Assembly: GCA_026415035.1 (NCBI GenBank) | Contig: JAOAHX010000003.1 | Span: 18,690-74,526, forward strand | Direction: 5' to 3' | Source: Thermodesulfobacteriota bacterium | Lineage (GTDB): Bacteria > Desulfobacterota > BSN033 > UBA1163 | DNA length: 55,837 nt | Shown here: positions 18,052 through 52,633 of the stretch, piece after piece | Position numbering within the stretch: the stretch's first letter is position 1 | Layout of the letters: every line of letters starts with the position of its first letter | Made by a program: the position numbers and the translations under genes | Notes under the pieces: model-generated | The model's input: the letters and a program-made list of their open reading frames with translations, nothing else | Database searches by the model: none | What the model was told of the DNA's origin: nothing

Positions 18052-18837
18052 ATGAAAAAGACAAATCTCTTGGCATTTCCCCTTTTCGGTCTATTCCTGG
18101 TCAACGGCATGGCCTTTGGGACCCCCACCACAACCCATTGGACTCCCGCGACAACCGACATCCAGCCTTTTGGAGTGCTCCACTTGGGCGTCGATAACTA
18201 TTTCACGGTCTTCCAGAGAGCTCGAGACGGGGGAAGCGCTTTTGGAACGGACATCGGGTTGACGATCGGCGTTCTCCCCTTCGAAAAACTTCAGTTGGAG
18301 GTGGGGATCGATTACATAGAACCCACGGATCACCCTGTCTCCTTCAATGCCAAGTTAGGAACCCCCGAGAATGCCCTCTTTTCCGGGGCGCCCGCCCTCA
18401 ACCTCGGGATCTTCAATGTGGGCACCAAGAAAGACGTGACCAACCAGAATATTGTATTTGGAATGGTAGGAAAAACGATTCCCATTCTTGGGGCAAGGCT
18501 ATTTGCAGGCCCTTATATAGGAAACGGGAAAGTCTTGGTTGACAAAAATGGGAAGAGGGAAAACAAAGGGTTTATGATCGGGCTGGACCGTGGTTTCTTC
18601 CCCGCTAAGGATAAGGAAGGAAATGAATATAAGAAGCTTGTCCTGGTTGCGGATTACGCATCCGGAAAGAATGCGATCGGAGGCGGTGGCGTGGGCCTGA
18701 TCTATTACTTCACTCCCAACATCAGCCTCCTCACCGGACCCGTGTGGTTCAACGAAAAGGAGATCAACGGAAAATGGAAGTGGACGATTCAGTTCGACGT
18801 CAATCTCCCACCGGTCAATCAGTGGTTCAAGAAATAA
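18052..18837 (+). CDS. Secreted, probably outer-membrane beta-barrel protein linked to amt1
   Basis: This 261-residue protein has a clear signal peptide (MKKTNLLAFPLFGLFLVNGMAFG), so it is exported. The mature part is rich in alternating hydrophobic/polar strands with Gly and aromatics (FGVLHLGVDNYFTVF, LQLEVGIDYIEP, GVGLIYYFTPNISLL), as in a small outer-membrane barrel. It lacks a C-terminal Phe, ending in NQWFKK, so barrel assignment is tentative. I do not recognise a named family. It directly precedes amt1 and glnK1 with a 39-base gap and shares their proposed sigma-54 promoter. The likely role is therefore envelope passage or sensing of ammonium or another nitrogen source, which is inference from context. 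The start at 18052 is fixed by AAGGAGG and the signal peptide. Confidence 0.65.
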   Translation: MKKTNLLAFPLFGLFLVNGMAFGTPTTTHWTPATTDIQPFGVLHLGVDNYFTVFQRARDGGSAFGTDIGLTIGVLPFEKLQLEVGIDYIEPTDHPVSFNAKLGTPENALFSGAPALNLGIFNVGTKKDVTNQNIVFGMVGKTIPILGARLFAGPYIGNGKVLVDKNGKRENKGFMIGLDRGFFPAKDKEGNEYKKLVLVADYASGKNAIGGGGVGLIYYFTPNISLLTGPVWFNEKEINGKWKWTIQFDVNLPPVNQWFKK

Positions 18838-18876
18838 GAAATCTCCCGACATCTTCTTTCGTCAAGGAGGCTCTAA

Positions 18877-20229: not shown

Positions 20230-20595
<366 letters not shown>

Positions 20596-20771
20596 AGTCG
20601 TCTTAGGGAATCAAGGGATGAGGAGGTGTTTAATTTCCAACAGCCTGATCAAATTCCAACGAGAAGACTCCCATAAGAGGCCTCGCAGGATTCTGCCCTC
20701 CCGAATTTCTCTTCTAACAACTCTTCAAAAATCTTGATCAAAACGTCCTTCGATCGGGTGGCTCCCCGCTC

Positions 20772-20787
20772 TGGCATAGCGATTGCT
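20772..20787 (+). promoter_or_regulatory. Sigma-54-type promoter before the amidotransferase gene
   Basis: TGGCATAGCGATTGCT matches the -24/-12 consensus well: TGGCA, correct spacing, TTGCT. The expected start at about 20798 lies two bases before the ATG at 20800, so the transcript would be practically leaderless, and no ribosome site is visible upstream of that ATG. Confidence 0.6.
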
Positions 20788-20799
20788 GATCTTTCTTGC

Positions 20800-21537
20800 A
20801 TGAAGGTCTTGATCCTCAAGCACGTCAACACCGAAGGACCGGGCCTGATCGAAGACTTCCTCATCCAACAAGGAGCCCCTTATCACATCATCGACCTCTC
20901 CCTATCCCCATACCTTCCAAAGCCCGATGCATTTTCTCACATCGTCATCCTCGGCGGCCCCATGAACGTCTATGAGGAGGACCGATATCCTTTCCTGAAA
21001 ATGGAGGACCTCTTTTTGAAAGAGGCGATCCAGAGGGGAAGGACGATCCTGGGTATATGCTTGGGGGCCCAGTTGATTGCGAAGGCCTTGGGGGCCAGGG
21101 TCTACAGAGCCCCCCTCAAAGAGATGGGATGGGATCAGGTGGTGTTGACCGAAGAGGGTCGAAAGGATCCCCTCTTCTCCGGCTTCCCGAAAAGATTCTC
21201 CGTATTTCAGTGGCACGAGGACACCTTCGACCTCCCGAATCAGGCGAAGTTGCTCGCCACCTCGGCCTTCGTATCCCATCAGGCCTTCCGATATGGAGAC
21301 GAGATCTACGGCCTCCAGTTTCATCTCGAGATGACTGAAGAGATGATCCGGGCGTGGGTGGAGGAAGATGAGGAAATAAGGGAGAGGAGAACGAATATTC
21401 TATTGCAGACGGAAAACGAGATGGAAGGATACCGAAAAAGGAGCATGAAATTCCTGAAACGTCTCTTTTACCAAAAGGTGCCCAAGGATCTCAGACCCCG
21501 AAGCAGGGGCAGGGTCGATTCGGAGAAAAGGAGGTAG
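20800..21537 (+). CDS. Class I glutamine amidotransferase (GuaA-N-like), stand-alone
   Basis: This 245-residue protein has a complete class I amidotransferase fold: VILGGPMNVYEED, the nucleophile elbow GICLGAQLIAKALG with the catalytic Cys, and LQFHLEMTEE with the His and Glu of the triad. It belongs to the GMP-synthase-like stand-alone group whose members hydrolyse or transfer from glutamine or gamma-glutamyl compounds. No synthetase partner is present. The C-terminal 50 residues are a charged, Arg/Lys-rich tail unlike the core family. It sits between the amt1-glnK1 and amt2-glnK2 pairs and ends four bases before amt2, so translation is probably coupled. I infer a role in releasing ammonia from glutamine or a glutamyl amide under nitrogen control, not proven. 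The start at MKVLILKH fits family N-termini. Confidence 0.82.
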   Translation: MKVLILKHVNTEGPGLIEDFLIQQGAPYHIIDLSLSPYLPKPDAFSHIVILGGPMNVYEEDRYPFLKMEDLFLKEAIQRGRTILGICLGAQLIAKALGARVYRAPLKEMGWDQVVLTEEGRKDPLFSGFPKRFSVFQWHEDTFDLPNQAKLLATSAFVSHQAFRYGDEIYGLQFHLEMTEEMIRAWVEEDEEIRERRTNILLQTENEMEGYRKRSMKFLKRLFYQKVPKDLRPRSRGRVDSEKRR

Positions 21538-21540
21538 GAG

Positions 21541-25671
<4,131 letters not shown>

Positions 25672-25697: not shown

Positions 25698-27863
25698 CTA
25701 TCTCTTCCATCGAAGATCGAACCGATCGAGGTTCATCACCTTGTTCCAGGCCTCGACGAAATCCCTCACAAACTTCTCTTTCCCGTCGGAAGCCCCATAG
25801 ACCTCGGCCACGCTCCGAAGCTCTCCGTGATGCCCGAAGATCAGGTCGACCCTCGTGGCCGTCCACGTGGGGGCCCCTGTCTTCCGGTCACGGCCCTGAA
25901 AGAGGTAGGCCTCCCCATCCATGGGCTGCCACTCCGTCCTCATATCGAGGAGGTTGACGAAGAAGTCGTTGCTGAGGACTCCGGGAGTCTTCGTGAAGAC
26001 GCCATGGGGCGAGAACTTATAGGTAGCCCCTAACGCCCTCAAACCCCCGACGAGGACGACCAGCTCCGGCACCGTCAGCCGCAGAAGCTGGGCCTTGTCC
26101 ACAAGAAGATATTCGGGGTTGGGGGTCTTGGGATCTTTGATATAGTTCCTGAAGCCGTCGGCCACAGGCTCCATGGCCGCATAGAAGAGGGTATCGGTCT
26201 GCTCTTGGAGCGCATCGACCCTCCCCGGCGTAAAAGGCACGGTCACATTCATCCCGGCCTTTTTTGCGGCGGCTTCGATCGCGGCGCATCCCCCCAGGAC
26301 GATGAGGTCGGCGAGGGAGACCCTCTTTCCGTCCTTCTGTCCGGAGTTGAACTCGTTCTGGATCGTTTGGTAGGTGCTCAGGACCTTGGCCAGATCTTCA
26401 GGATGGTTGACCTCCCAGTCCTTCTGCGGAGCCAGGCGAATTCGTGCGCCATTGGCTCCTCCCCTTCGGTCCGAATCGCGATAGGTCGAGGCTGAGGACC
26501 AGGCGGTATAGACGAGCTGGGCGATGCTCAGGCCGGAGGCGAGGACCCTCTCCTTCAACTTCCTGATGTCTTCCTCGTCTATCAGTCGATAATCCCTCTT
26601 GGGCAGGGGATCTTGCCAGACAAAGACCTCTTCCGGCACCTCGGGGCCGAAGTAGCACTCCCGGGGACCCAGATCCCGATGGACCAGTTTGAACCAGGCC
26701 TTGGCAAAAGCGGCTTCGAACTCTTTGGGATTTTCGAGAAATCGCCTTGCGATCTTCGCATACTCCGGATCGAATCGGAAGGCCAGATCCGCGGTCAGCA
26801 TCATGGGAGGATGCTTCTTGTTGGGATCGTGGGCATCCGGAACGATGGCGGGCGCGTTCTTGGCGACCCACTGATTCTTTCCAGCGGGGCTCTTCGTCAA
26901 CTCCCATTCAAAATTGAAAAGGAACTGGAGGTAGGCGATCCCGAATTTCGTGGGCGTGGAGGACCAAACGAGTTCGAACCCGGAGGTGTAGGTATCGGGT
27001 CCTTTTCCCGTCTTATAGGTATTCTTCCAGCCGAGCCCCTGCTGTTCCACGGGAGAGGAGTCGGGATCAGGGCCCACGTAGGTTTCGGGGCAGGCCCCGT
27101 GGCATTTCCCGAAGGCATGGCCTCCAGCGACCAGGGCGACGGTCTCCTCGTCGCTCATCCCCATCCGGTTGAAGGCCACACGGATCTGCTTGGCCGAGGC
27201 CACCGGATCGGGATTTCCCTCAGGCCCCTCGGGGTTCACGTAGATGAGCCCCATCTCCGTTGCAGCAAAGGGTTTCTCAAGCTCCCCTTCTCTGAACCGT
27301 CCCTTTCCGGAGAGCATCTCGATCTCCGGGCCCCAGTCCGGGCTTTCGTCCGGCTCCCAGATATCCTCCCTCCCGCCTGCGAAGCCGATGGTATGCACGC
27401 CCATATGCTCCAGGGCCACATTGCCGGCCAGGATGATGAGATCGGCCCAGGAGAGCTTACGTCCGTATTTCTGCTTGATGGGCCAGAGGAGCCGGATCGC
27501 CTTGTCCAGGCTCATATTGTCTGGCCAATCTCCTCTGGGAGGAAAGCGGAGGTCGCCGGTTCGCGCCCCTCCCCGGCCGTCGAAGATCCGGTAACTTCCC
27601 GCACTGTGCCAGGCCATCCGGATGAACAGGGGGCCGTAGTGGCCGAAATCGGCAGGCCACCAGTCCTGGGAGGTGGTCATCAGGGCCTTCAGGTCTTCCT
27701 TCACCTCCGAAAGGTTCAACGTTTCGAACTCCTTCACATAGTCGTAATCGGGCCCGTAGGGGTTGGCATGGGAACAATTCTGCCTCAGCATCTTCAGGTT
27801 GAGCCGGTTCGGCCACCAGTCGGTGATCCATCGCTTCTTTCCTCCTTGGTCCTTCTGTTCCAT
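25698..27863 (-). CDS. katG: Catalase-peroxidase KatG
   Basis: This 721-residue enzyme detoxifies hydrogen peroxide in the cytoplasm and has a peroxidase side activity. The distal triad Arg-Trp-His is visible in [13 protein letters not shown] and the proximal haem His in [12 protein letters not shown]. Trp, Tyr ([10 protein letters not shown]) and Met (NRMGMSDEE) of the characteristic covalent adduct are all present. The second, haem-free copy domain follows, and the protein ends in DRFDLRWKR as in the family. No signal peptide is seen. I prefer the ATG at 27863, five bases after an AGGAGG. It faces a PerR/Fur-type gene across a 141-base divergent region. KatG and a peroxide regulator suit an anaerobe exposed to occasional oxygen. 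Confidence 0.97.
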
Positions 27864-27887
27864 AGGCACCTCCTCGATTGACTTTCA

Positions 27888-33934: not shown

Positions 33935-35257
33935 ATGGACAAGGAGACCGTATTGAAGTTGGCAAAGGAGAACGATGTGAAATTTATCCGCCTCTGGTTT
34001 ACGGACATCCTCGGGTTCCTGAAGGGGTTTGCCATCACCATCGACGAGCTGGAGGGGGCTTTGGAGGAGGGCATGGGCTTCGATGGCTCCTCCATCCAGG
34101 GCTATGCCCGGATCGACGAGAGCGATATGATCGCCAAACCCGATCCCCAGACCTTCCAGATCATCCCTTGGCGCCCCAAAGAGAATGCGGTCGCCAGGAT
34201 GTTCGCCGACATCTATGAGCCGGACGGGACGCCCTATAAGGGCGATCCGCGATGGGTCCTGAAAAAAACCCTCAAAAAGGCCCAGGATCTCGGCTACACC
34301 TTCTATGTAGGGCCTGAACTGGAGTACTTCTACTTTAAAAGCAACGAAGGAGCTCCTCAGACCCTCGACCGGGGGGGATACTTCGATCTCACCCCGCTGG
34401 ATGTCGCCACCGAACTTCGTCGCGAAACGATCCTCACCCTTGAAGCCATGGGCATCCGGGTCGAATACAGCCATCACGAGGTGGCTCCGAGCCAGCACGA
34501 GATCGACCTTCGTTATGCCGATGCCCTGACCATGGCCGATTACGCCATGACCTACCGCCTGGTGGTCAAGGAGGTGGCCCTCAGGCACGGCGTCTATGCC
34601 ACCTTCATGCCCAAACCCATCTTCGGCCAGAACGGGAGCGGGATGCATACCCATCAATCGCTCTTCAAGGGCGACAAGAATGCCTTCTTCGACCCAAAGG
34701 ACGAATTCCATCTCTCCAAGGTCGCCAAGGCCTACACCGCTGGGATCCTTAAACACGCCAAAGAAATTACCGCCATTACCTCCCAATGGGTCAACTCCTA
34801 CAAGAGACTGGTGCCCGGCTATGAAGCCCCTGTTTACATCGCTTGGGCGAGGCGAAACCGTTCAGCCCTTGTCCGGGTTCCGATGTATAAGCCTGGAAAG
34901 GAGAAGGCGACCCGGATCGAGCTCCGCTCGCCGGACCCCGCCTGCAACCCCTACCTGGCCTTTGCTGTGATGCTCGCCGCTGGCCTGAAAGGCATCGAAA
35001 AGGGCTACGAGCTTCCTCCCCCGGTGGAGGAGGACATCTTCGAGATGTCCGAGGAGGCCCGGAGGCAACATGGCATCGAATCGCTTCCCGGCAGTCTGTA
35101 CGAGGCCATTCAGTTCGCCGAACAGAGCGAACTGGTGAGGGAGACCCTCGGAGACCACATCTTCCAAAAGTTCATCGAGAACAAGAAGATCGAGTGGGAC
35201 CAATATCGCACCCACGTCTCCCAGTTCGAAATAGAGAAGTATCTGCCGATCCTGTGA
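33935..35257 (+). CDS. glnA: Glutamine synthetase type I (alpha-like)
   Basis: This 440-residue enzyme makes glutamine from glutamate, ammonium and ATP. Motifs include FDGSSIQGYARIDESDM, the ATP/metal region VGPELEYFYFK, HHEVAPSQHEIDLRYADAL and NGSGMHTHQSLFK. At 440 residues it matches the shorter alpha class: the extra segment of the beta class and the adenylylated Tyr of NLYDLP are missing (EEDIFEMSEE stands there). It is therefore likely controlled by feedback and expression, not by GlnE adenylylation. TAGGAGGAAAGG precedes the ATG and a sigma-54-type promoter lies upstream. The giant glutamate synthase-like gene starts 54 bases after it, so GS and a GOGAT-like enzyme are probably made together. 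Confidence 0.96.
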   Translation: MDKETVLKLAKENDVKFIRLWFTDILGFLKGFAITIDELEGALEEGMGFDGSSIQGYARIDESDMIAKPDPQTFQIIPWRPKENAVARMFADIYEPDGTPYKGDPRWVLKKTLKKAQDLGYTFYVGPELEYFYFKSNEGAPQTLDRGGYFDLTPLDVATELRRETILTLEAMGIRVEYSHHEVAPSQHEIDLRYADALTMADYAMTYRLVVKEVALRHGVYATFMPKPIFGQNGSGMHTHQSLFKGDKNAFFDPKDEFHLSKVAKAYTAGILKHAKEITAITSQWVNSYKRLVPGYEAPVYIAWARRNRSALVRVPMYKPGKEKATRIELRSPDPACNPYLAFAVMLAAGLKGIEKGYELPPPVEEDIFEMSEEARRQHGIESLPGSLYEAIQFAEQSELVRETLGDHIFQKFIENKKIEWDQYRTHVSQFEIEKYLPIL

Positions 35258-35310: not shown

Positions 35311-38300
35311 ATGAAGTCAAAACAGAAAAAATCGGCCTGGAGAAAGTATCTCCAGGCCTTTTTACAGGAGACCCCTGATCTGAAGATCATCGACGATCCG
35401 GAAAAGTTCGAATATTACCGGACCGACCTGAACGTCGACCTCCCCCCCTTGGTCCGTGACCTGATGCTCAAAAGCCTTCCCGATCTCGTCCTTAAACCCG
35501 AGACGGAGGAGCACCTGAAAAAGATCCTTTCTTTCGCCAACGAACACCGGATCCCCATGACCGTTCGGGGTGCAGGGACCTGGGGTTACGGGGGCTCGGT
35601 CCCGACGCAGGGCGGGATCCTCGTCGATCTCAGCCTGATGAACTCGGTCGAGGTCGATGCAGAGGCGCTTCGGGTAACGGTTGGGCCTGGCGCCCGTTTC
35701 CTCGACATTCAGAAGAGACTCGAATCAAAGGGGTTGGCCCTCTCCACCATCGCTTCGGGAAAAGGGGGAACCCTTGTCGGCTGGATTGCCACGGGCGGGA
35801 TGGGCCTCGGCACCTTACGGCACGGACCGGTGAAGGACCAGATCGTCTCCCTAAGGGTCATCACGCCGGACGGAACGGTCAAGGACCTTTCGAAGGAGGA
35901 CCCTGAGATCCACTATTTCATCGGCACAGAGGGGCAGTTGGGAATCATCACCCGGGTCACCCTTCGCGTGGTCAGACTTCCCTCCCAGTGGTATCCCGTC
36001 GCCCTCGCCTTTGGGAACGCCTCCTCGGCCTACTCCTTTGCAAAGGGTTTGGCCTCCAAAACGACCCTCCAACCCGAGGATATCGTCCTCTACCATCCAA
36101 ACCTCATCTCCGCCCTCCATCTCCCCTCCGATTCCAAGATCGCCACTGACCTCCGTCACCTCGTCCTGGTCTCTTTCGACAACGAGGAGGAGGTCCACCG
36201 ATTGAAAGAACATCTGGAGGCCTCCGGCATCCTCCCCCTCGACGATGCCCTGGCCCGCGACCTCTGGGAGAAACGGTTCCTTCCGATGTCGATCAAATCC
36301 CTTGGCCCATCCCTCCTGGCCAGCGAGGTGATCCTCCCTGTCGGTCAGGTGGCCCCCTATCTCGAAAGACTCCAAGAGATGGCCAGGAACCTGGCCGTGA
36401 CGCTTTATCCCATCAGCCACCTCATCAACCCGGGAGAAGTCCTCCTGCTGGTGATGATGACCACGGACAATCGGAAGAACATCTTCTACCTCGACCTCAT
36501 CTTCATCCCGATGATGCTCAAGCTGGCGGTCCAGTCTCACCAGGGAAAGCCCTATGGCATCGGCATATGGAATACGCCCTTTCTCCGCCACCTCTTCGGC
36601 CGCGAAACCCTAAAAACGCTCCGGCAATATAAGCGAAAGGTCGATCCACACGGCATTCTCAATCCAGGGAAATTCTTCGCCACCTCGGGCCGCTGGGGCT
36701 CCTTCCAGAAGGCCCTGTTCCAGGAGGATCTTTTCAATCTCGGCCTCAGCGCCTCCCAGTGGTTGATGTTCAGGCTCCTCTCCCTCTTTCCCGTGGAGAA
36801 GTTGAGGCTTCGCACTCCCATGGTCTCCGAAAGACTGGAACCGATCGCCAGGGAGATCCTCTCTTGCGCCCAATGCGGCACCTGTGTGACCCGTTGCCCT
36901 GTCTACCGGGCCACGGGAGATGAAACCCTTTCGGCCCGGGGAAAATTCTTCACCCTCAAGAAGGCCATCGAAAAGGGAGAGCTGGAACTCTCAAAAGCCC
37001 TTCCCCTCTATTTCTGTCTCCGTTGCGGCCGATGCGACGAAGAGTGTCAGGTCCATATTAACCACCTCCCTTTGTTCGAGGCCCTGGAAGGATATCTCGC
37101 CGAGGCCAGCGGATTCCCAATCGAAGAGATCAAAAGGTTCATCGCTGAGGTGGAGAACAGCCCGGACTTCCAGCGCTACCTTGACGTCGTCCGAACGGGC
37201 TTCGACCAGAAGATCCACGAAAAAAGGAACACCTTTCCGAGGTACCGGGTCTGGATCGATGAGGCCCACTGCATCCATTGTGGAACGTGCGTGGATGCCT
37301 GCATCTACAGTGTTCGGAAACGAGACGAATCCGATCCCCGTCTCATTCGAATCGAGGACGAAGGGCTCTGCCGGGGATGCGGTTCCTGCATCGAACGGTG
37401 TCCCCAGATGGCGGCGGGATTTCCGGCGACGATGGTGGAGCTCCATCCCTGTTTCCTCGAGATCGATGACCCCTATTGGACCGGTCTGACCGTGGCCCGC
37501 ATCGACCTGGAAGCCACCACCGGTAAAATCCCCGTCTCCGGCACAGGACAGGGCGATCCCCATCGAGGATCAGGGAATGATGGAATCCGTTTCGGCCATT
37601 TCCACATCGTCGGTCCGGCCCAGAACCTCCTCTACGAAAGCACCGAAGACGCCATCGCCATCCATTTGGGCCAGAAGCCGAAGTATCTGACCTTCCACGA
37701 TGGGAGGATCTTGACCCCGCCTCCCAGGCTCATTCATCTGAAGACCCCGATTCTCTTCGACCTCCTTCCCCTCAAGATCGACGAGGGCTGGCTCGAGGCC
37801 CTGCTCGAGGCGTCGAAGGCGACGGGGACGCGCCTGACCCTCACGCTCGATGATTTTGACCGCCTCCGGCCGAGGATCGGAGACCGGACAGGCCAGATCA
37901 TCCTAAGGCTCACCTCGGACGAGTTGAAGAGGGAAGGAGGGAGGTTGAGGGAGATCCCGGTCGAGCTCTTCGAAGTCGAGATCGACGAGGCGGTCCTCAA
38001 TAAGGCCGGAGATCTAAAAGGCCTTCTCCCGGAGAAAGCGCTTCTTTCCGCCGTCATCAAATTGGACCCCGAGGACATCACCCCCGACCTTCAACCCTCT
38101 TTGGCCCTCCGCGAATGGATCGATCGCCTCATGGCGTCACCCTTCGATCTTCTCTGCCTTACCTCGGACTACAATCCAACGACCAAATACTATCCGACCA
38201 CGGACGCCGTCCCAGCGGTCCATCGCTATCTCATCGAACAAAAGGCGCGCCACCGATTCTCCATCCTCGGGGCCGGAGGCATCCGCTCCGCCGCAGATAC

Positions 38301-41085
38301 CCAGAAGACCATTCAGCGGGGGGCAAACGGGGTCAAGATCGATTGGCCCGTCCTCATGGCGGGAGACCCCCACGCCCGCCAGAAATTCCTCAGGGGAGAG
38401 AGGACGGTCCTCCCCCAAGACCCGGCCACCTTGGCAAAGCGCCTGATCAACCTCATCCGGGTCTGGAACATCCAGATCATCGAGGTCCTCGGCGCCTCGG
38501 GTTTCAAAGACATCAAGAAGACCGTAGGGGAGGAGAATCGCCTGATCATCTTCGACGATTTGGAAGAGAGGATATACGACATCTTCCACGACCCGCATCG
38601 CTTGAGACGAAACGAGGAAGCCAACAAAGCTAGGGTCCAAAGGGAGGGTCTGATGGCGGGCCTTGGATGGCGTTACAGCCAGTTGAAAGGGATGATCCAA
38701 CCCACCCCGCCTCCCCATCGATTCTACGACGAAAAGATGCCCCGGGCCTGTCACCGGATCTTCGACCAAGATCACGTCTGGCCCGCCTGGCTCCTTTCGT
38801 CCGTAGGCCGAATGGCCTCGGGGGATCTGGCCACCCTCTCCCTCAAGAAGGTGGAGTCGATAGGAAATCTCGGCGATGGTTTCGATGCCATCGGGATCTG
38901 TTTCAGGCAGGACCCAGACGGGATTTCAGAGGAGAAGCTCGATGAGGTCTCGACCGCGCTCCAGCTCTCTCCCACGCTTCGACTGAAGACCCCCTTTTTA
39001 GGGGCTGGGATGTCCGTGGGATCGATCGGACCCGGAACCTGGCGGGCGAGGGTCCTGGCCACCTGCCGCCTCAAAACCCAGCTCGACACAGGAGAGGGAG
39101 GATATCCGACCTTCTACCTCCTCGATGCCAAATGGAATCCCCTCGACCTTTCCGATGAGCAGGTCATCCTCCTGGGAAGGGTGATGGAGGAGCGGAAACT
39201 GATCACGGTCGAGGAACTGATCCGGCGCTGCCTGAGGAAGGGGGCCATCTTCCCGGAATACGAGGAGATCGCAGAGATCTTGAAGCAATATCCTCCTTCC
39301 ATGCCCGTCCAATATGTGCCGATCGTCACCCCTGCAGAGGAACCCTTCGTCTCGACCCAGCTCAAGACCGGGCTCTTCGGGGTCACCAAAGAGACCATCC
39401 GCCGGGCCAGGCGGGTCGTCATCACCTACAGTCAGGGCGCCAAACAGGGCGTAGGGGGCCATCTCCTCGGACGGAAGGTCTTCGGCCTGGTCTCGAGGCT
39501 CCGGGGCGTGCCCGAAGGGGTGAGCCTCATCTCCCCCTTCCCTTTCCACAATTGCTACTCGATCGAGGATGTCAAGGCCTTTATCGATGCAGTGAGGATG
39601 ATCAACCCCAGGGCCAGCATCTGCATCAAGGTCTCCCCTTCTCCGGACATCGAGTTCATCTTCTCCGGCCTTGCGAGGATCGCCAAGGACAACCGGATGA
39701 CGATCGAGATCTGGCTCGACGGCCCACGGGGCGGAACGGGCGCGGCCCCGGACATCATCAAGGGTCAGATGGGGATGCACATGGAGTATGCGATCCCCCT
39801 CTGTCACGAGAAATTGATGGACTCTGGCCTCAGGGAATATGTGGTCTTCATGGGAAGCGGTGGCATGCGCACCTGGGCGGATATCGTCAAAGGGATCGCC
39901 CTCGGCCTCGACGGGGTCGTCCTCGGGACGGCCGATCTGGTGGCGATCGGCTGTGTCCGAGACCGCAACTGCGAATCGGGCTGCCGAAGCGGCATCTCGA
40001 CGGTCAATCCCAAGATGCAGCTGCTTCGCAACGTCGAGCTCAATACCCAGCAGATCATCAACTTCAGGGCCATCTTGCAGGCCCAGGTGATCCGGGCGAT
40101 CGCTGCCCTGGGCATGAAAGACATCCGACAACTCCGGGGTCGTTACGATACGATCCGGTGGCCCCTCCTTGAGGAGAGGGTGGAGAGGCGGCGCCAGGCT
40201 CGGACGGCCCCTCTTCCCCCAGAGGTCCAGGTCGCCCCCCCGACCCAGGAACGTCCTCCCTTTAAACCCGTGGAGGCAGGCTCCTCTCCTCCCTCCGATT
40301 GCGGGGTCGCGGCCATTGTTTCGAACCGAATCATCCCGAGTCACGTGATGGACCTGATGCTCGATCGGATGGCCAACCGGGGGATGGATGGCGTGGGGAT
40401 CTGGAAGGGAGGATGTTATCCCCATCATCTCGATCACTATGCCCTCCATGTCCTGGTCAAAGGCACCCCTCAAGACGAAATCGAAGTCCGTCTCCTCTCC
40501 CAAAACCCTGGTCTCAGCTTAGGAAAGATCCGGCAGAGGGCAAGGGAAGAGGTCCTCGCCAGACGCCAGCGGATCATCGAAGAGATCTGCCGGAGATATT
40601 TCGGGGACCTCGAGGGGGTGGATCCCGACGGCGACTTGGGGAAATGCCGTATCCCGTACCGGCTCGACCCTGAGGGCAAGGAGCAGGACTTCCGATCTTT
40701 CGGGGAGAGGGATCCGGGGGATCTCTACCGCTTCTTCGTTCGGGTCCGCCGCCAAGCCCTCTTTCGGTTCATCGAAGAGGAGCTCCTCCGGGATGAGATC
40801 TGGCCTCCCCTGAAGTTGCGGTACGCCCATCTGACCCTTGAAAATTACCATGAGAACGAGGCCTTCCTCCGAGAGGCTGAAGACGAATATATCTATCGTC
40901 TGGCCCGGAGGATCACGAGGGAGAACTACGTCGAAGCGCCCACCAAAAGGCGGCCATCCTCTCCTGCGGAAAGAACTCGGGTTGCTGGAAGAGCGATGGC
41001 CGCTATATCCCCTGGCAGCTTCCCGATGCCCCGGTCAACATCATCCACCGCAGGCTGGCCACGGGGTCCGTCGTCGATCAGCTGA
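35311..41085 (+). CDS. Giant GlcD/GlcF-ferredoxin-glutamate synthase fusion, part 1 (before frameshift)
   Basis: Residues 1 to about 460 form a PCMH-type FAD domain and FAD-oxidase C domain (GLGTLRHG, GTEGQLGIITRV, DPHGILNPGKFF), as in GlcD and D-2-hydroxyacid dehydrogenases. Next come GlcF-type clusters (Cys519/522/525/529 and Cys569/572/575/579), then a two-cluster ferredoxin (Cys654-664 and Cys687-697). A first glutamate-synthase-like barrel (about 700-1100) has lost typical motifs. A second (about 1220-1612) is canonical, with LDGPRGGTGAAP and the 3Fe-4S Cys1548, Cys1554 and Cys1558. A class II amidotransferase domain begins at Cys1664 (CGVAAIVSNR). The frame continues as nonsense after about residue 1879; the rest is encoded from 40947. 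No NAD(P)H subunit is present, so the FAD module could supply electrons from a hydroxyacid. That is inference. Confidence 0.85.
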   Translation: MKSKQKKSAWRKYLQAFLQETPDLKIIDDPEKFEYYRTDLNVDLPPLVRDLMLKSLPDLVLKPETEEHLKKILSFANEHRIPMTVRGAGTWGYGGSVPTQGGILVDLSLMNSVEVDAEALRVTVGPGARFLDIQKRLESKGLALSTIASGKGGTLVGWIATGGMGLGTLRHGPVKDQIVSLRVITPDGTVKDLSKEDPEIHYFIGTEGQLGIITRVTLRVVRLPSQWYPVALAFGNASSAYSFAKGLASKTTLQPEDIVLYHPNLISALHLPSDSKIATDLRHLVLVSFDNEEEVHRLKEHLEASGILPLDDALARDLWEKRFLPMSIKSLGPSLLASEVILPVGQVAPYLERLQEMARNLAVTLYPISHLINPGEVLLLVMMTTDNRKNIFYLDLIFIPMMLKLAVQSHQGKPYGIGIWNTPFLRHLFGRETLKTLRQYKRKVDPHGILNPGKFFATSGRWGSFQKALFQEDLFNLGLSASQWLMFRLLSLFPVEKLRLRTPMVSERLEPIAREILSCAQCGTCVTRCPVYRATGDETLSARGKFFTLKKAIEKGELELSKALPLYFCLRCGRCDEECQVHINHLPLFEALEGYLAEASGFPIEEIKRFIAEVENSPDFQRYLDVVRTGFDQKIHEKRNTFPRYRVWIDEAHCIHCGTCVDACIYSVRKRDESDPRLIRIEDEGLCRGCGSCIERCPQMAAGFPATMVELHPCFLEIDDPYWTGLTVARIDLEATTGKIPVSGTGQGDPHRGSGNDGIRFGHFHIVGPAQNLLYESTEDAIAIHLGQKPKYLTFHDGRILTPPPRLIHLKTPILFDLLPLKIDEGWLEALLEASKATGTRLTLTLDDFDRLRPRIGDRTGQIILRLTSDELKREGGRLREIPVELFEVEIDEAVLNKAGDLKGLLPEKALLSAVIKLDPEDITPDLQPSLALREWIDRLMASPFDLLCLTSDYNPTTKYYPTTDAVPAVHRYLIEQKARHRFSILGAGGIRSAADTQKTIQRGANGVKIDWPVLMAGDPHARQKFLRGERTVLPQDPATLAKRLINLIRVWNIQIIEVLGASGFKDIKKTVGEENRLIIFDDLEERIYDIFHDPHRLRRNEEANKARVQREGLMAGLGWRYSQLKGMIQPTPPPHRFYDEKMPRACHRIFDQDHVWPAWLLSSVGRMASGDLATLSLKKVESIGNLGDGFDAIGICFRQDPDGISEEKLDEVSTALQLSPTLRLKTPFLGAGMSVGSIGPGTWRARVLATCRLKTQLDTGEGGYPTFYLLDAKWNPLDLSDEQVILLGRVMEERKLITVEELIRRCLRKGAIFPEYEEIAEILKQYPPSMPVQYVPIVTPAEEPFVSTQLKTGLFGVTKETIRRARRVVITYSQGAKQGVGGHLLGRKVFGLVSRLRGVPEGVSLISPFPFHNCYSIEDVKAFIDAVRMINPRASICIKVSPSPDIEFIFSGLARIAKDNRMTIEIWLDGPRGGTGAAPDIIKGQMGMHMEYAIPLCHEKLMDSGLREYVVFMGSGGMRTWADIVKGIALGLDGVVLGTADLVAIGCVRDRNCESGCRSGISTVNPKMQLLRNVELNTQQIINFRAILQAQVIRAIAALGMKDIRQLRGRYDTIRWPLLEERVERRRQARTAPLPPEVQVAPPTQERPPFKPVEAGSSPPSDCGVAAIVSNRIIPSHVMDLMLDRMANRGMDGVGIWKGGCYPHHLDHYALHVLVKGTPQDEIEVRLLSQNPGLSLGKIRQRAREEVLARRQRIIEEICRRYFGDLEGVDPDGDLGKCRIPYRLDPEGKEQDFRSFGERDPGDLYRFFVRVRRQALFRFIEEELLRDEIWPPLKLRYAHLTLENYHENEAFLREAEDEYIYRLARRITRENYVEAPTKRRPSSPAERTRVAGRAMAAISPGSFPMPRSTSSTAGWPRGPSSIS
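40941..40952 (+). other. Single-base frameshift inside the giant fusion gene
   Basis: Amidotransferase homology leaves the first frame after codon AAA at 40945 and resumes in the -1 frame with AAG at 40947, reading on as AAILSCGKNSGCWKSDGRY. Adding one A to the run AAAA (40945-40948) would restore one open frame of about 2,539 codons. A missing base in a short A run, real or from sequencing, explains it best. The site is not a good programmed -1 slippery sequence. Confidence 0.8.
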
Positions 41086-42929
41086 ACTCCCATCCCTTCT
41101 CAGAACTCCACACCGCCCTGACCCATAACGGCGAGACGACCAATTATCGAACGATGCTCAATCGCGTCACCCAATTCAATCTCACCCCCCTTGCCCAGAC
41201 CGATACGGCGGTCGCCTCCCTGAAACTCCACCTGCTCAGCCAGTACTTTCAATATCCCTTCGATGCCCTCGTGGAATCCTTCTCCCCGACCACGGGCTGG
41301 ACATTGACCCAGTTGCCTCCGGAGGCGAAAGAACGCTTCGAACGGATCCAAGAGGTCGAACTTGAAAGTGCCCCCGATGGCCCTTACCAGTACCTCTGCG
41401 GCCGGATCGATCCCTACCGGAGGGTGATCGAGCGCCTCGACATCATCGACCCCTCCCTCTTGCGGCCCAACGTGGCGATGCTCTACGATGACGGAGAGAA
41501 TTTCGTGAGCATCATCTGTTCCGAAAAGCAGGGATGCGATGCGGGGATGGAGGAACTCCATCGGTTGGGCTTGACCAAAAGTCCCCTGGCCCCCCTGATT
41601 TTCACGGTCAACCCTGGGATGTTGAGCAGGGTCTTTTATGACGAGGCCGGCCGGATCACGGGGCACGAGGTCCTCGACAAATTCGGCCGCCGCATCGAGA
41701 TCCCGAGAGGGACCTTTCCCTCGGTTCAAATCCAAACCCTTCGACCGCCGGAGACAACCACATTCGATGGCCCTTCCCATCCTCCCGCCTTTTCCCGAAA
41801 AGAGGACTATGGAATCTGGGTCCGGGATCAAATCAAAGGTTGGAGTTTTCAGGAGTTCGAGGCCGCTCTGGATCGAATCACACAAAAGCTTCCTCCCCTT
41901 TCGGCCTTCGAAGAGCTGACCGCTCTCTATGACCGATTGCCGGGGATGGAGATCGGTGAAAAAGACCGGGCAGCCCTCCTCCACAGGGCTCGAGAAAGGA
42001 TCTATCAATTCCTCGACCGGTTGAACGGGGAGGAAGGGATGATCAAAGTCGGCCTTGAAACGGCGGGGAAATTAAAAAAACCCGGGAAGAGAGAGGAGGT
42101 CCTGGTAGTCGATGCCAGGGGATTCCTCCCGGAAGGCACCGACCCCCTCAGAGTCCTCGGCCCCTTCCTCGACCATGCCCACCGGATGGGATGGCGGAGG
42201 TTCGTCGTCTACCGGGCCGAGGGTCAGAGAGGGATCGGGATGGGTATCGGTTCAAAGGATACCTCCGATACGGTCATCGACATCTTCGGAAGCCCGGGCG
42301 AATATTGTGGGGCCTTCAATATGGGTGCCCTCCTCCGAATCCACGGCCACGCCCAGAACTTTACGGGGATGGTGATGCATTCGGGGACCCTCACCGTTCA
42401 TGGCGATGCGGGAAAGGTGACCGGATATGCCGCCAAAGGCGGGACCTTCAACATCCTCGGAAATGTCGTCGATCGGGGCTGGGTCTGCGCGGTAAGCGAC
42501 CCGAGGGGGCCCGGGCTGGAGGTCAACATTGTGGGCACCGGCCATGAACACCTCTGCCAGGCCCTCATGGGAGGGTCGGTCCTCATGCTCGGTCTGTGCC
42601 GGGGATACGATGGGCTCCTTCGAAGGCTCGAGACCCCCTACAGAGGGGCGAAAATCCTTGCCGGCGCCTCCGCGGGGGAGGTGATCTTCTACGACCCCGA
42701 AGGAAAGATCCAAGAGGCCCAGCACCGAGGCTGTCTCACCCGACCCCTCGATCCCCAGAAATGGTCCGAGATCGAGCGCCGCCTCTTAAAATTGGAGGAA
42801 ATCTTTGCCCTCGGGATCAAGGGAAAGAACGGGCAACTCACCCTCCAGGTCGAGGGAAGATCGGAGCCGCTCGGACCCGAGGCCTTCAAGTGGATCCTCC
42901 CCAAAGGGGAATTGGAAGGATATCATTAA
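40947..42929 (+). CDS. Giant fusion, part 2: class II amidotransferase remainder + GXGXG domain
   Basis: This frame carries the rest of the protein (about 660 residues) and has no start codon of its own near the beginning; the first ATG, at 41154, falls inside the amidotransferase fold. Visible are CGKNSGCW, HRRLATGSVVDQLNSHPFS (equivalent to HGRFPTNT), HNGETTNYRTM and QTDTAVASL of class II amidotransferases. A linker of about 270 residues follows, then the GXGXG beta-helix domain (GIGMGIGSKD, GAFNMGALL, GMVMHSGTLTVHGDAGKVTGYAAKGG split over several turns), as at the end of GltB. The order FMN barrel, amidotransferase, GXGXG differs from canonical GltB, where the amidotransferase is first. 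Translation as found here would fail unless the frame is corrected. Confidence 0.85.
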   Translation, partial: KAAILSCGKNSGCWKSDGRYIPWQLPDAPVNIIHRRLATGSVVDQLNSHPFSELHTALTHNGETTNYRTMLNRVTQFNLTPLAQTDTAVASLKLHLLSQYFQYPFDALVESFSPTTGWTLTQLPPEAKERFERIQEVELESAPDGPYQYLCGRIDPYRRVIERLDIIDPSLLRPNVAMLYDDGENFVSIICSEKQGCDAGMEELHRLGLTKSPLAPLIFTVNPGMLSRVFYDEAGRITGHEVLDKFGRRIEIPRGTFPSVQIQTLRPPETTTFDGPSHPPAFSRKEDYGIWVRDQIKGWSFQEFEAALDRITQKLPPLSAFEELTALYDRLPGMEIGEKDRAALLHRARERIYQFLDRLNGEEGMIKVGLETAGKLKKPGKREEVLVVDARGFLPEGTDPLRVLGPFLDHAHRMGWRRFVVYRAEGQRGIGMGIGSKDTSDTVIDIFGSPGEYCGAFNMGALLRIHGHAQNFTGMVMHSGTLTVHGDAGKVTGYAAKGGTFNILGNVVDRGWVCAVSDPRGPGLEVNIVGTGHEHLCQALMGGSVLMLGLCRGYDGLLRRLETPYRGAKILAGASAGEVIFYDPEGKIQEAQHRGCLTRPLDPQKWSEIERRLLKLEEIFALGIKGKNGQLTLQVEGRSEPLGPEAFKWILPKGELEGYH

Positions 42930-43453: not shown

Positions 43454-44587
43454 ATGAAATCGGTTCAGAAAGCCCTACTGGCCCTCGAGGATGGAACCGT
43501 CTTTGAAGGGAGGTCCTTCGGATTTCCCGGAGAGAAGGCGGGCGAACTCGTCTTCAACACGAGCATGACCGGCTATCAGGAGATCCTGACCGATCCCTCT
43601 TACGCCGGACAGATCGTCATCATGACCTATCCTCTCATCGGCAATTACGGAATCAATGAGAAGGATGTCGAATCGAAGGGCCCAAAGGTGGAGGGGTTCA
43701 TCATCAAGGAGAACAGCGCCCTCTTCAGCAACTGGCGGGCCGAGCGCTCCCTGACCGATTATCTCATCAGCCATCGGATCATGGGCGTGGAAGGGATGGA
43801 CACTCGGGCCCTCACCAAACATATTCGGGAGCGAGGGGCGATGAAGGCCATCCTCTCCACCGAGGATCTCGACGCCTCCCGCCTGATCGAGAAGGCGAAG
43901 GCCTCGCCCGGTCTGATCGGAAGGGATCTGGTCCGGGGGGTCACCTGCGAACGTCCCTATGTATGGACGGAATCGAACGACACCCAATTTTTGCGGCCTT
44001 CCGTGAAGGCCCGCTTTCGACCGAAGGTGGTGGTGATCGACTATGGCGTCAAGTTCAACATCCTCCGTTCCCTCAGGGACTGGGGATGTGAGGTGACGGT
44101 CGTTCCGGCCTCTTCGAGCGCGGAAACGGTTCTCTCTTACGGTCCCGACGGCATCCTCCTTTCCAATGGGCCCGGAGACCCGGAGGGAATCCCCTATGCC
44201 ATCGAAACGGTCAAACAGCTGATCGGGAAGAAACCGATCTTCGGGATCTGCTTGGGTCACCAACTCCTCGGGTTGGCCTTAGGAGGAAGGACCTTCAAAC
44301 TGAAGTTCGGCCACCGGGGGGCCAACCAGCCCGTGAAGAACCTCCACACCGGCAAGGTCCACATCACCTCCCAGAACCATGGATTTGCAGTGGATCCCGA
44401 TTCCCTCAACCCGAAAGAGGTGGAACTGACCGAGATCAACCTCAATGACCGAACCCTGGAGGGCCTCCGACACAAGCGGTTTCCGATCTTCTCGGTTCAG
44501 TATCATCCTGAGGCCTCTCCAGGCCCCCAGGATACCCTGGACCTCTTCGGCGAGTTTGTGAAGATGATGGAAAAGGACAAGGGATAG
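43454..44587 (+). CDS. carA: Carbamoyl-phosphate synthase small subunit
   Basis: This 377-residue subunit splits glutamine and passes ammonia to CarB for carbamoyl phosphate, used in pyrimidine and arginine synthesis. The N-terminal CPSase domain begins KALLALEDGTVFEGRSFG and contains FNTSMTGYQEILTDPSY. The class I amidotransferase domain has the nucleophile elbow GICLGHQLLGLALGG and the His-Glu pair in QYHPEASPGP. The length is typical. The ATG at 43454 lies 12 bases past the leader terminator, with a weak GGGATGAAGG ribosome site that overlaps the downstream flank of the hairpin. carB follows after 44 bases. Confidence 0.97.
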   Translation: MKSVQKALLALEDGTVFEGRSFGFPGEKAGELVFNTSMTGYQEILTDPSYAGQIVIMTYPLIGNYGINEKDVESKGPKVEGFIIKENSALFSNWRAERSLTDYLISHRIMGVEGMDTRALTKHIRERGAMKAILSTEDLDASRLIEKAKASPGLIGRDLVRGVTCERPYVWTESNDTQFLRPSVKARFRPKVVVIDYGVKFNILRSLRDWGCEVTVVPASSSAETVLSYGPDGILLSNGPGDPEGIPYAIETVKQLIGKKPIFGICLGHQLLGLALGGRTFKLKFGHRGANQPVKNLHTGKVHITSQNHGFAVDPDSLNPKEVELTEINLNDRTLEGLRHKRFPIFSVQYHPEASPGPQDTLDLFGEFVKMMEKDKG

Positions 44588-44631
44588 CTGAAAATAGAGA
44601 CCGACCTTTCGGAGAAGCACCGTAACGAGGT

Positions 44632-47600
44632 ATGCCCAAACGAACCGACATTAAGAAGATCCTCATCATCGGCTCTGGCCCGATCGTCATCGGCCAGGCC
44701 TGCGAATTCGATTACTCCGGCACTCAGGCCTGCAAGGCCCTGAAAGAGGAAGGCTACGAGGTGGTGCTCGTCAATTCGAATCCCGCCACCATCATGACCG
44801 ATCCCGAGATGGCCGACCGGATTTACATCGAGCCGATCACCCCGGAGGTCGTCGAGAAGATCATCGAACGGGAGCGACCCGATGCCCTGCTTCCGACTTT
44901 GGGAGGACAGACCGGCCTCAACGTCTCCGTCTCCCTCTATGAGGCAGGGGTGCTCGAAAAATACGGCGTCGAGATGATCGGAGCGAAGTATGAGGCCATC
45001 AAGAAGGGAGAGGACCGAAAACTCTTTAAAGAGGCGATGAAGAGGATCGGCCTCGATTTGCCTCGAAGCGGGCTGGCCTACTCCTTGGCAGAGGCCCTGG
45101 AGGTCGCCAAGGAGATCGGATTCCCCTTGATCATCCGGCCCAGCTTCACCCTGGGAGGCACCGGGGGCGGGGTGGCTTACAACATCCAGGAGTTCGAGGA
45201 GATGGCCGCCCGGGGCCTCGAATGGTCGATGATCAACGAGATCCTGATCGAGGAATCGGTCCTGGGATGGAAGGAGTTCGAGCTGGAGGTGATGAGGGAC
45301 TTAAAGGACAACGTCGTCATCATCTGCACCATCGAGAACTTCGACCCGATGGGGATCCACACAGGCGATAGCATCACGGTTGCCCCGGCCCAGACGCTCT
45401 CGGACAAGGAGTACCAGAGGATGCGAAATGCGGCCATCCAGGTGATCCGGGAGATCGGCGTGGAGACAGGAGGCTCCAACATCCAATTTGCCGTCCATCC
45501 GAAGACGGGCCGGATGGTCGTCATCGAAATGAACCCCCGCGTCTCCCGTTCTTCGGCCCTGGCCTCGAAGGCGACCGGATTTCCCATCGCCAAGATCGCG
45601 GCCAAGCTGGCGATCGGGTATACCCTGGATGAAATTCCCAACGACATCACGAAGAAGACGCCCGCCTCCTTCGAGCCCACCATCGACTATTGCGTCGTCA
45701 AAATTCCCCGTTTCACCTTCGAAAAGTTCCCCGATGCCGATCCCACCCTGACGGTCTCGATGAAATCGGTGGGAGAGGTCATGGCCATCGGTCGGACCTT
45801 CAAAGAGGCCCTCCAGAAGGCGATCCGATCCCTCGAGATCGGCCGTTACGGCCTGGGGGCGGATGGGAGAGACAAGATCCTCTGGGACGGCTCCTCCAGG
45901 GAGTGGGACCGAGGCCAGATGCTCGATCAGGTGAGAAAGAAACTCCTCACCCCGAATGCGGAAAGGCTCTTCTACCTCCGCTATGCCTTCCTCCTCGGGA
46001 TGAAGATGGAGGAAATCTACGAGCTGACTCACATCGATCCCTGGTTCCTCTCCAACATTCGCCAGCTCGTCGAGCTCGAAGGAGAGCTTCGCGCCTACGG
46101 GGCGGCCTTGAGAGATCTCACCCCCTCCCAGAGACTCCAGTCCCCTGCCTCCCTCCCCCTGCCCGATTCTCTTCTCAGACGGGCCAAGGAATGGGGATTC
46201 TCCGATGTCCAGCTCGGGTACCTCCTGGGCCTCGATCAAGAGACGATCCGTCAAATCCGAAAGGAGAGGCAGATCCTTCCTGTCTATAAACTGGTCGATA
46301 CCTGTGGGGCAGAATTCGAGGCCTTCACCCCCTATTACTACTCCACCTATGAAAGGGAGAACGAGGCCACCCCATCCTCGGGAAGGAAGAAGATCATGAT
46401 CCTGGGCGGGGGGCCAAACCGGATCGGCCAGGGCGTGGAGTTCGACTACTGCTGTGTCCACGCGGCCTATGCCTTGAAGGAGCTCGGATACGAGACGATC
46501 ATGGTCAACTCCAACCCGGAGACCGTCTCGACCGATTACGACACGTCGGACAAGCTCTATTTTGAACCCCTCACCCTCGAGGACGTCCTCCACATCGTCG
46601 AGATGGAGAAACCCGACGGGATCATCGTGCAGTTTGGGGGTCAGACCCCCCTCAACCTTGCGGTCCCCCTCGAAAAGGCGGGGGCCAAGATCATCGGCAC
46701 GACCCCTGACAATATCGACCGGGCCGAAGACCGAAAGCGGTTTCAGGAACTCCTCCGGAAACTCCGTCTCGTCCAGCCCCCCAACGGGACCGCCACCTCA
46801 TTTGAGGAGGCGAAGCGGGTGGCCAAAGAGATCGGTTATCCGGTCATCGTCAGGCCCTCTTATGTCCTGGGTGGAAGGGCGATGGAGATCGTTTACGATG
46901 AGCTCTCCCTGGAGCAATTCGTCCAGAAAGCCGTGGAGGCCTCCTCCGAACATCCCCTCTTGATCGACAAGTTTCTCGAGGACGCCATCGAGATCGATGT
47001 CGATGCCATCTCGGATGGGGCCACCTGCCTCATCGCCGGGATCATGGAGCATATCGAGGCCGCCGGGATCCATTCCGGGGACAGCGCCTGCGTCACCCCC
47101 CCTTACTCCTTGAGCGATGAATTGATCGACCAGTTGAAACAGAACACCTATGCCCTGGCCCGGGAGCTGCAGGTCGTGGGCCTGATGAACATCCAGTATG
47201 CCATCAAAAACGACGTGGTCTATGTCCTCGAAGTCAATCCGAGGGCCTCGAGGACCATCCCCTTCATCAGCAAGGCCACGGGGGTCCCTTGGGCCAAGGT
47301 GGCCGCCAAGGTGATGGTCGGAAAGACCCTTCAGGAACTCGGCATCCTGAAAGAGGTCGATCTCCCCCACATCGCGGTCAAGGAATCGGTCTTCCCCTTC
47401 AAACGTTTCTACGGGGTGGACACGATCCTCGGCCCGGAGATGAAATCGACCGGTGAGGTGATGGGGATCGATACCGACTTCGGCGTGGCCTTTGCCAAAT
47501 CCCAGATCTCTGCAGGCACGCTCATCCCCCTGAAGGGAAGGGTCTTCATCAGCGTCATGAACAAAGATAAACGGGCCATCGTCTTCATCGCCAAGAAGCT

Positions 47601-47952
47601 GGCCGATCTGGGGTTCGACATCGTGGCGACCCGGGGGACGGCCAAGGTCCTGACGAGCAACGGCATCCCGGTCCAGACCGTTTTCAAAGTAGGGGAGGGG
47701 AGGCCCGATGTCGTCGACCGGATGAAAAACGGGGAGATCCACCTCGTCATCAACACCCCGAGCGGAAAGAAACCCAAAGCGGATGAGGTGGCGATCCGGA
47801 GCCAAGCGGTGGCCCACAGCATCCCCATCATCACCACCCTCTCCGGCGCCGAAGCAGTGGTCAATGGGATCGAATCCCTTCTCAAAAAGGGCCTTTCGGT
47901 CCGTTCGATCCAGGAATATCATGCCGACCTCCGTCAAACCTCCTTTAAGTAA
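44632..47952 (+). CDS. carB: Carbamoyl-phosphate synthase large subunit
   Basis: This 1,106-residue enzyme builds carbamoyl phosphate from bicarbonate, ammonia and two ATP. Its two homologous ATP-grasp halves are both intact: [19 protein letters not shown] and [18 protein letters not shown] open them, and [20 protein letters not shown] and [19 protein letters not shown] mark the metal-binding ends. The oligomerisation domain lies between them, and a C-terminal MGS-like allosteric domain ([29 protein letters not shown]) binds effectors such as UMP or ornithine in relatives. The length is typical. It is co-transcribed with carA. Its last 32 bases overlap the proposed start of the next gene. Confidence 0.97.
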
Positions 47953-51502: not shown

Positions 51503-52633
51503 ATGAGACAGGCTCCATCCCTTCTGCGGGAGTTCGAAAGAATCGCCACCCTCGGCGTCCCCGAGCGGGTTTCCCTTTCGCCCGAGCAGGCCGTTCCGAT
51601 CGGTTATTTCTGTCCCTACGTACCCGAAGAACTCCTCCATGCCGCAGGGGCCCTTCCCTATCGGCTCCTCGGAGACACGATCAACCCGACCCATGCTTCA
51701 ACCCATCTCCCCCCCAACTGCTGCCATCTCGTAAAGTCCTCCCTCGAAAGGCTGCTCACGGGTGAGCTCGACTTTCTGAAGGGGGTTATCTTTTCTCATA
51801 CCTGCGATACGATGCAGGGGCTTTCCGACATCTGGGCCTTTCAGAAGCGCCTTCCCCTCCACTTCGACTTCCTGATGCCCTCCAACCTCGCCTCCGAACG
51901 GGCCCGTCCCTATCTGAGGGCAGAGATCGAGAGGCTGAAAGCCTTTCTCGAAAAGCATCTCCAGCCCATCCCAGAGGATCGTCTCGGGGAGTCCATCCAC
52001 CTCTTCAACCAGATCCGGGAGAAGATCCGAACCCTCTACCGGCTCCGAAGGAGAGCGCCTCGATCTCTTACCGGGGTTGCTCTGGCCCACATCCTTCGGG
52101 CAGGTTTCGTGATGGATCGATCGCTCTATCTGGAACGGCTGACCGAACTGCTCCGGGACTTGAATGATATGGAGGAAGCGAGGTGGGATGCCGTTCCGAT
52201 CTATCTTACGGGAAATATGGTCCACCCGCCGGGCCTTATCGCCACGATCGAGGAGGCGGGGGCCTTGGTCGTCCACGACCGTCTCTGCAGCGGTGCAAGG
52301 TTCCTTCATCTGGTGACCCGAGAAGATCTCGACCCCCTCAATGCCCTCGCCGAGAGATACTTCTCCTCCTTCCTCTGCCCGACCAAACATTCGGGTCCGG
52401 AGGCCCATGTTGAGACCTTGACCAAAGAAGTGGAGGAGACCGGGGCCAGAGGCGTGGTCTTTCTCCTGTATAAATACTGCGAGCCCCATTTTTTCGACTA
52501 TCCCGATCTCAGAAAGGCCCTGGAGGCGAAAGGGATTCCTACTCTCCTTCTCGAGGTAGATGATCCGACCACCTCCCATGGACAGATGAAGACCCGGGTC
52601 CAGGCCTTCGTGGAGATGCTCTCCTCGCTTTGA
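51503..52633 (+). CDS. 2-hydroxyacyl-CoA dehydratase / benzoyl-CoA reductase-family subunit
   Basis: This 376-residue protein belongs to the HgdB/BadD-E-like family, whose members carry a 4Fe-4S cluster and accept single electrons from an ATP-driven activator. Typical features are GYFCPYVPEELLHAAGALPYRL near the N-terminus (split here by the motif YVPEE), a Cys pair in LPPNCCHLVKSSLE, FSHTCDTMQGLSDIW and a C-terminal LLYKYCEPHFFDYPDL. The cluster-ligating Cys residues are thus present. No activator (HgdC/BadF-like) or CoA-linked gene is adjacent. Another family member starts at 55500, so the two may form a dimer with the transport genes between them. The substrate is unknown. AGGGAG precedes the ATG. 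Confidence 0.85.
   Translation: MRQAPSLLREFERIATLGVPERVSLSPEQAVPIGYFCPYVPEELLHAAGALPYRLLGDTINPTHASTHLPPNCCHLVKSSLERLLTGELDFLKGVIFSHTCDTMQGLSDIWAFQKRLPLHFDFLMPSNLASERARPYLRAEIERLKAFLEKHLQPIPEDRLGESIHLFNQIREKIRTLYRLRRRAPRSLTGVALAHILRAGFVMDRSLYLERLTELLRDLNDMEEARWDAVPIYLTGNMVHPPGLIATIEEAGALVVHDRLCSGARFLHLVTREDLDPLNALAERYFSSFLCPTKHSGPEAHVETLTKEVEETGARGVVFLLYKYCEPHFFDYPDLRKALEAKGIPTLLLEVDDPTTSHGQMKTRVQAFVEMLSSL

Follow-up and report, generated by a model that had tools for sequence, protein, structure and literature searches.

A probable glutamate synthase fused to a GlcD/LctD-type electron-input module in a Thermodesulfobacteriota bacterium and its relatives

Which reductant feeds a probable glutamate synthase that carries its own flavin module and has no GltD? 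This question is raised by a locus at positions 35311-42929 (plus strand) of a 55,837-nucleotide stretch, hereafter the window, from a Thermodesulfobacteriota bacterium (assembly GCA_026415035.1, contig JAOAHX010000003.1, positions 18,690 to 74,526), whose genome, a Syntrophaceae-like one from Desulfobacterota, is closest among named relatives to metagenome-assembled genomes (MAGs) of Syntrophaceae and Deltaproteobacteria. The locus encodes, in this order, a flavin adenine dinucleotide (FAD) module, a GlcF-type 2x[4Fe-4S] module, a 2x[4Fe-4S] ferredoxin, a degenerate barrel, a flavin mononucleotide (FMN)/3Fe-4S barrel, a class II amidotransferase and a GXGXG domain. All the domains named in the original prediction were recovered in the places it had given, with Pfam E-values far beyond chance (Glu_synthase 3e-76, FAD_binding_4 1e-34, Fer4 5e-14 and 1e-10, GXGXG 1e-10), and directly after glnA, which ends 54 bp upstream. 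We read the locus, with a probability of about 0.7 and on the basis of sequence, as a complete glutamate synthase in which GltD is replaced by a GlcD/LctD-type FAD module and two 2x[4Fe-4S] modules, the scheme for donor and cleavage proposed below being part of this reading. Its features, in window coordinates, are:

35479..36672, plus strand: GlcD/LctD/LDHD-type FAD module (FAD_binding_4 and FAD-oxidase_C; Pfam, AlphaFold2 model and fold comparison)
36274..36276, plus strand: codon of Arg322, aligned with Arg347 of LDHD, which binds the substrate carboxylate (invariant in 30 aligned rows)
36550..36573, plus strand: PYGIGIWN motif replacing (S/T)GEHGIG, with the metal-binding Glu and catalytic His lost (alignment)
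36862..37050, plus strand: GlcF-type dicluster for two [4Fe-4S], 8 Cys (PF13183; Cys invariant in 15 fusions)
37267..37401, plus strand: 8Fe ferredoxin domain, 8 invariant Cys (Pfam and alignment)
37438..38580 (approximate boundaries), plus strand: degenerate barrel resembling Glu_synthase, which probably corresponds to the GltB central domain (second PF01645 stretch)
38950..40116, plus strand: FMN/synthase barrel with 3Fe-4S motif (PF01645, 3e-76; aligned with solved GltB)
39946..39984, plus strand: [3Fe-4S] ligands C-x5-C-x3-C (alignment)
40300..40302, plus strand: codon of the amidotransferase nucleophile Cys (amino acid 1664), internal, with predicted cleavage directly before it (alignment)
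40300..41900 (3' boundary approximate, frameshift inside), plus strand: class II glutamine amidotransferase (catalytic residues aligned with canonical GltB)
42267..42719, plus strand: GXGXG domain (PF01493, 1e-10)

Alignment of the FMN barrel with solved GltB structures (about 1e-39) includes the GEGG, QGAK, SPxPxHxxYSIED and GGTGA motifs and the three cluster Cys, the second Cys spacing of the [3Fe-4S] motif being x3 rather than x4. The FMN/3Fe-4S features are confined to this second barrel; the first of the two glutamate-synthase barrels originally proposed is a weak, degenerate homologue. This PF01645-like barrel occupies the place of the GltB central domain (PF04898), for which no match was found in the fusion, and in the split operons described below it forms a separate gene with a ferredoxin (Fd-CEN). 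The divergence of the amidotransferase exceeds the Pfam cut-off; an alignment with canonical GltB of the same phylum shows that the nucleophile Cys, the Arg of NRG, the Arg of HxR, the Asn-Gly of HNGE and the Asp of TDT are retained. Across the 15 fusions 24 Cys are invariant; the nucleophile and 8 + 8 + 3 ligands of clusters are among them. The likeness to GlcF that had been proposed stands for the 4Fe-4S dicluster only, since the GlcF cysteine-rich CCG domains (PF02754) gave no match in the fusion.

Apart from the fusion gene, the host genome has no strong Glu_synthase match, and no canonical GltB (with the PF04898 central domain) was found in genomes of the window order. A dedicated GltD was likewise not found, in agreement with the original prediction: the best full-length GltD-like match is NfnB, which lies beside NfnA, and there is none near the fusion gene. 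It is very likely that the fusion works as a glutamate synthase whose electrons enter through a module other than GltD.

The fusion shares with GltB/GltD (A. brasilense, 6S6X and 1EA0) the catalytic residues of the class II amidotransferase, the FMN/3Fe-4S barrel, the GXGXG domain, and FAD and [4Fe-4S] clusters feeding FMN, but differs in being one gene, in having a FAD module of the GlcD/LctD type rather than GltD, and in having four predicted [4Fe-4S] clusters instead of two. While the order in GltB is amidotransferase, central domain, FMN barrel and GXGXG, the amidotransferase of the fusion sits between the FMN barrel and GXGXG, and its nucleophile Cys is internal. Archaeal-type split and F420-dependent synthases (the MTH193 region; FrhB10 clusters of anaerobic methanotrophic archaea, ANME) also have separate synthase pieces and an exchangeable input subunit, but in the fusion the pieces are joined and the input is GlcD/GlcF-like rather than FrhB-like. 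GlcF/YdiJ-type dehydrogenases show the same succession of FAD module and 4Fe-4S dicluster; the fusion lacks their CCG domains, so that a quinone-linked route is not indicated. No GlcD-glutamate synthase fusion was found in the open-access literature searched, and the locus is a conserved glutamate-synthase variant, undescribed there, whose electron-input module is of a new kind.

The fusion gene is present in 15 of the 17 genomes of the window order, usually in the order glnA, fusion, small ABM gene, carA and carB. Longer fusions (2,806-2,890 amino acids) occur in Calditrichota-type MAGs; in two of these the fusion appears as open reading frames (ORFs) of 1857+1037 amino acids (L102) and 1419+754+661 amino acids (L109), through natural fission or sequencing frameshifts. 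Outside the window order the parts form a four-gene operon encoding FAD-FeS (about 615 amino acids), Fd-barrel (about 470), Fd-FMN barrel (about 493) and amidotransferase-GXGXG (about 870) proteins, in hosts that include Smithella, Syntrophomonas, Dehalococcoidales, Aminicenantes, Brocadiaceae, Methanophagales/ANME-1 and Methanocellales, and partial fusions were detected in Chloroflexi (1219 amino acids) and Acidobacteriota (963-993 amino acids). The gene order of this operon is that of the fusion domains, so that the domain order described earlier as permuted is so relative to GltB only. The parts are thus separate genes in many relatives, yet not the unrelated neighbours that the original prediction had named as its refutation: they are adjacent, co-oriented and in the same order, which argues that the association of FAD/Fe-S input and synthase is old and functional, and the coupling of the two in one gene holds as predicted.

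The FMN-barrel tree unites all fusions in a single clade (100/100), so that a single origin of the complete fusion is probable, the long stem being a caution. The second ferredoxin, which precedes the FMN barrel in the split genes, is absent from both fusion types. Two ANME-1 (Methanophagales) genomes carry glnA, four glutamate-synthase genes, carB and carA in a row, a block that resembles the glnA, fusion, carA and carB of bacteria and suggests that the arrangement is old or was transferred.

Several points weigh against our reading. A PDB sequence search with the amidotransferase profile gave no match, and the AlphaFold2 model of the amidotransferase and linker was poor (predicted local distance difference test score, pLDDT, 54.8) and was not used. 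Two of the 17 members of the order have no fusion, and the FMN barrel of the fusions has diverged very far from its split counterparts (stem of about 3 changes per site). With its frameshift, the window copy may be a broken gene. A glutamate dehydrogenase gene lies 24 kb from the fusion, and most relatives also have one, so the fusion need not be the sole source of glutamate. A role in nitrogen assimilation is well supported.

Class II amidotransferases need the nucleophile Cys at the N-terminus. It is Cys1 in GltB, lies at positions 12-51 and never at 2 in the split genes, which implies that a propeptide must be removed, and lies at 1663-1680 in the Syntrophaceae fusions (context SDCGVAA) and 1932-1942 in the Calditrichota fusions (SNCGVAA). 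The 38-residue linker before this Cys shows 34% identity, compared with 84-86% on either side. Because the Cys is internal and follows a variable linker, maturation into two chains is predicted: the polypeptide is probably cut directly before the Cys, the front half serving as the "propeptide", and the products would be chains of about 185 kDa (FAD to FMN) and 95 kDa (amidotransferase-GXGXG) that remain associated.

The AlphaFold2 model of residues 1-640, which include the FAD module (pLDDT 84.8), has the VAO/PCMH fold with its FAD-binding segments, and is closest to mouse LDHD (Z 33.5), LctD in the Ldh-EtfAB complex (Z 32.8) and human D-2-hydroxyglutarate dehydrogenase (D2HGDH, Z 30.8); Foldseek agrees. 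Mouse LDHD uses His398, His405 and Glu442 as Mn2+ ligands, Arg347 to hold the carboxylate and His443 as base, and each of these residues is essential (PMC10589216). The equivalents of His405, Glu442 and His443 are replaced in 30/30 aligned members of the family, that of His398 is retained in part of it only, and an invariant Tyr415 occupies the place of the base His. Whereas LctD (7QH2, electron-bifurcating lactate dehydrogenase), LDHD and D2HGDH share with the module the fold, the FAD-binding segments and the carboxylate Arg, their GDGNxH and EHG motifs are missing from it, PYGxGxWN takes the place of GEHGIG in most of the 30 members, and Fe-S and synthase domains are attached. The frequency of PYGxGxWN partly reflects how members were retrieved, as one of the two patterns of the genome scan for relatives contained it; two members retrieved without that pattern still carry it, and three Elusimicrobia members, also retrieved without it, lack the exact motif and have Tyr but no EHG.

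In the proposed scheme, a two-electron donor would reduce the FAD, and electrons would travel singly through the four [4Fe-4S] clusters and the [3Fe-4S] cluster to FMN. The amidotransferase would release ammonia from glutamine supplied by the adjacent GlnA, and the ammonia would meet 2-oxoglutarate at the FMN barrel, where the intermediate would be reduced to glutamate. A soluble redox carrier or other small reductant is the likeliest donor, rather than a 2-hydroxyacid that is oxidised in the usual way with metal and His. The electron inputs that the literature found reports for glutamate synthases serve general carriers: besides GltD with NADPH, there are direct ferredoxin input (PMC8097209) and, in methanogens and ANME, an FrhB-like subunit for F420 (PMC3087415; PMC9012536). 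By analogy with these exchangeable inputs, a general two-electron carrier would be expected for the FAD module.

A sharper form of this explanation is that the FAD accepts hydride from a pyridine nucleotide or another general carrier (NAD(P)H; F420H2 in archaea) as GltD does. Both the known inputs and the rebuilt substrate site are in its favour, as is the adjacency of HdrA, MvhD or MetVF genes to related cores without the FAD module; against it, no recognisable nucleotide-binding motif is present, and we put it somewhat short of even odds. Among relatives of this fold, MurB and DHCR24 use NAD(P)H. No FrhB-type domain was found in the fusion, and neighbouring genes were not scanned for FrhB in every relative. 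The cores without the FAD module are three-gene glutamate-synthase cores in four relatives, next to MetVF-like, MvhD-like or HdrA-like genes, names read from the sequences without profile search; these neighbours suggest further electron-input modules. Stand-alone FAD proteins with PYGxGxWN were considered as a clue to the donor and gave no clear lead: two of them (L114:228-5183 and L116:9782-14665) are followed by CobW-like and succinyl-CoA-ligase-like genes, which may point to a further pathway built on this flavin module, and another (L100) has a CCG Fe-S protein and an aldo/keto reductase as neighbours.

Exchange of electrons between the FAD and a flavoprotein partner such as EtfAB, as in LctD and perhaps within an electron-confurcating complex, might be expected from LctD (Ldh-EtfAB) being the best PDB sequence match and tying for the best fold, and from hosts that are syntrophs and methane oxidisers. 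LctD, however, retains the EHG and GDGNxH motifs, and no etfAB pair was noticed in the conserved neighbourhoods, which were not scanned systematically for it, so that we consider such a partner unlikely.

The original prediction proposed that the module oxidises a D-2-hydroxyacid, perhaps 2-hydroxyglutarate, so that one protein would drive glutamate synthesis and make its own 2-oxoglutarate. This idea draws on the fold of LDHD, LctD and D2HGDH, on the invariant carboxylate-binding Arg, on Tyr415 as a possible base and, weakly, on a 2-hydroxyglutaryl-CoA dehydratase D-component-like gene (51503-52633) that lies 9 kb away among unrelated genes. With two of the three Mn ligands and the catalytic His replaced throughout, and the remaining ligand kept in only part of the family, the usual 2-hydroxyacid chemistry is unlikely, and we rate this donor slightly below the flavoprotein partner; an unusual carboxylate might still act as donor, given the retained Arg and the invariant Tyr. 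A more far-reaching claim, that the locus defines a new class of glutamate synthase, with a rebuilt LctD-like FAD module, a donor novel for such enzymes and a fused precursor of about 280 kDa cut before the internal Cys into two chains, is tentative and, in our view, rather doubtful as a whole.

In this assembly the locus, of about 2,539 codons in the original prediction, is not one open frame but two ORFs in different frames:

35311..41085, plus strand: first ORF, 1924 amino acids, its final ~50 codons past about 40,930 being out of frame
40921..40962, plus strand: frameshift, one base short relative to all intact relatives
41154..42929, plus strand: second ORF, 591 amino acids, with the remaining amidotransferase and GXGXG; in-frame coding extends upstream to about 40,950

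The phase of third-position G+C shifts once, around 40,840-40,900, and two conserved residues are separated by 41 nucleotides in the window and 42 in relatives, which indicates that one base is missing near 40,930-40,950. Since the same protein is an intact single ORF of 2,528-2,570 amino acids in 12 relatives (11 of the order and one outside), the break is specific to the window genome or its assembly; a programmed frameshift was rejected, as no relative requires one. That the fusion is a pseudogene or annotation artefact, as the frameshift might suggest, is highly improbable given these 12 intact relatives with strong residue conservation, a similar apparent break in another relative being a run of N, and at most the window copy could be broken. 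A perfect 10-bp terminator-like hairpin followed by TTTTT (35334-35358) lies within the first codons of the fusion; it is not conserved in relatives and is probably due to chance.

The immediate neighbours of the fusion are:

33935..35257, plus strand: glnA, type I glutamine synthetase of 440 amino acids (TIGR00653, 4e-165), adjoining the fusion in most relatives and the synthase genes in ANME-1 split operons
43454..47952, plus strand: carA and carB, glutamine-using carbamoyl-phosphate synthase (conserved neighbours; identity named from sequence)

Further upstream (9575-25671) is a nitrogen-assimilation supercluster with genes for glutamate dehydrogenase, a histidine kinase, two sigma-54 activators, a glutamine-type NAD synthase, two Amt transporters and a GlnD-like protein, and this context supports our reading. 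A 522-amino-acid protein with a partial Glu_synthase domain (FMN-binding glutamate synthase-like) is encoded at 5489-7057, near a NuoF-like gene (1454-3304, minus strand). A catalase-peroxidase-type protein with two PF00141 stretches (25698-27869, minus strand) is encoded in this presumably anaerobic host.

Glutamate synthase is one of the main routes by which ammonia enters biomass, and its donor sets which reductant the cell spends. The operon, of which the papers found contain no description, spans syntrophs and anaerobic methane oxidisers, which live near the energetic limit, and thereby raises the question of what reduces an LctD-like flavin that lacks hydroxyacid chemistry. The fusion also offers a natural test of whether an N-terminal-nucleophile amidotransferase can become active when it starts out midway along a chain of 2,500 residues.

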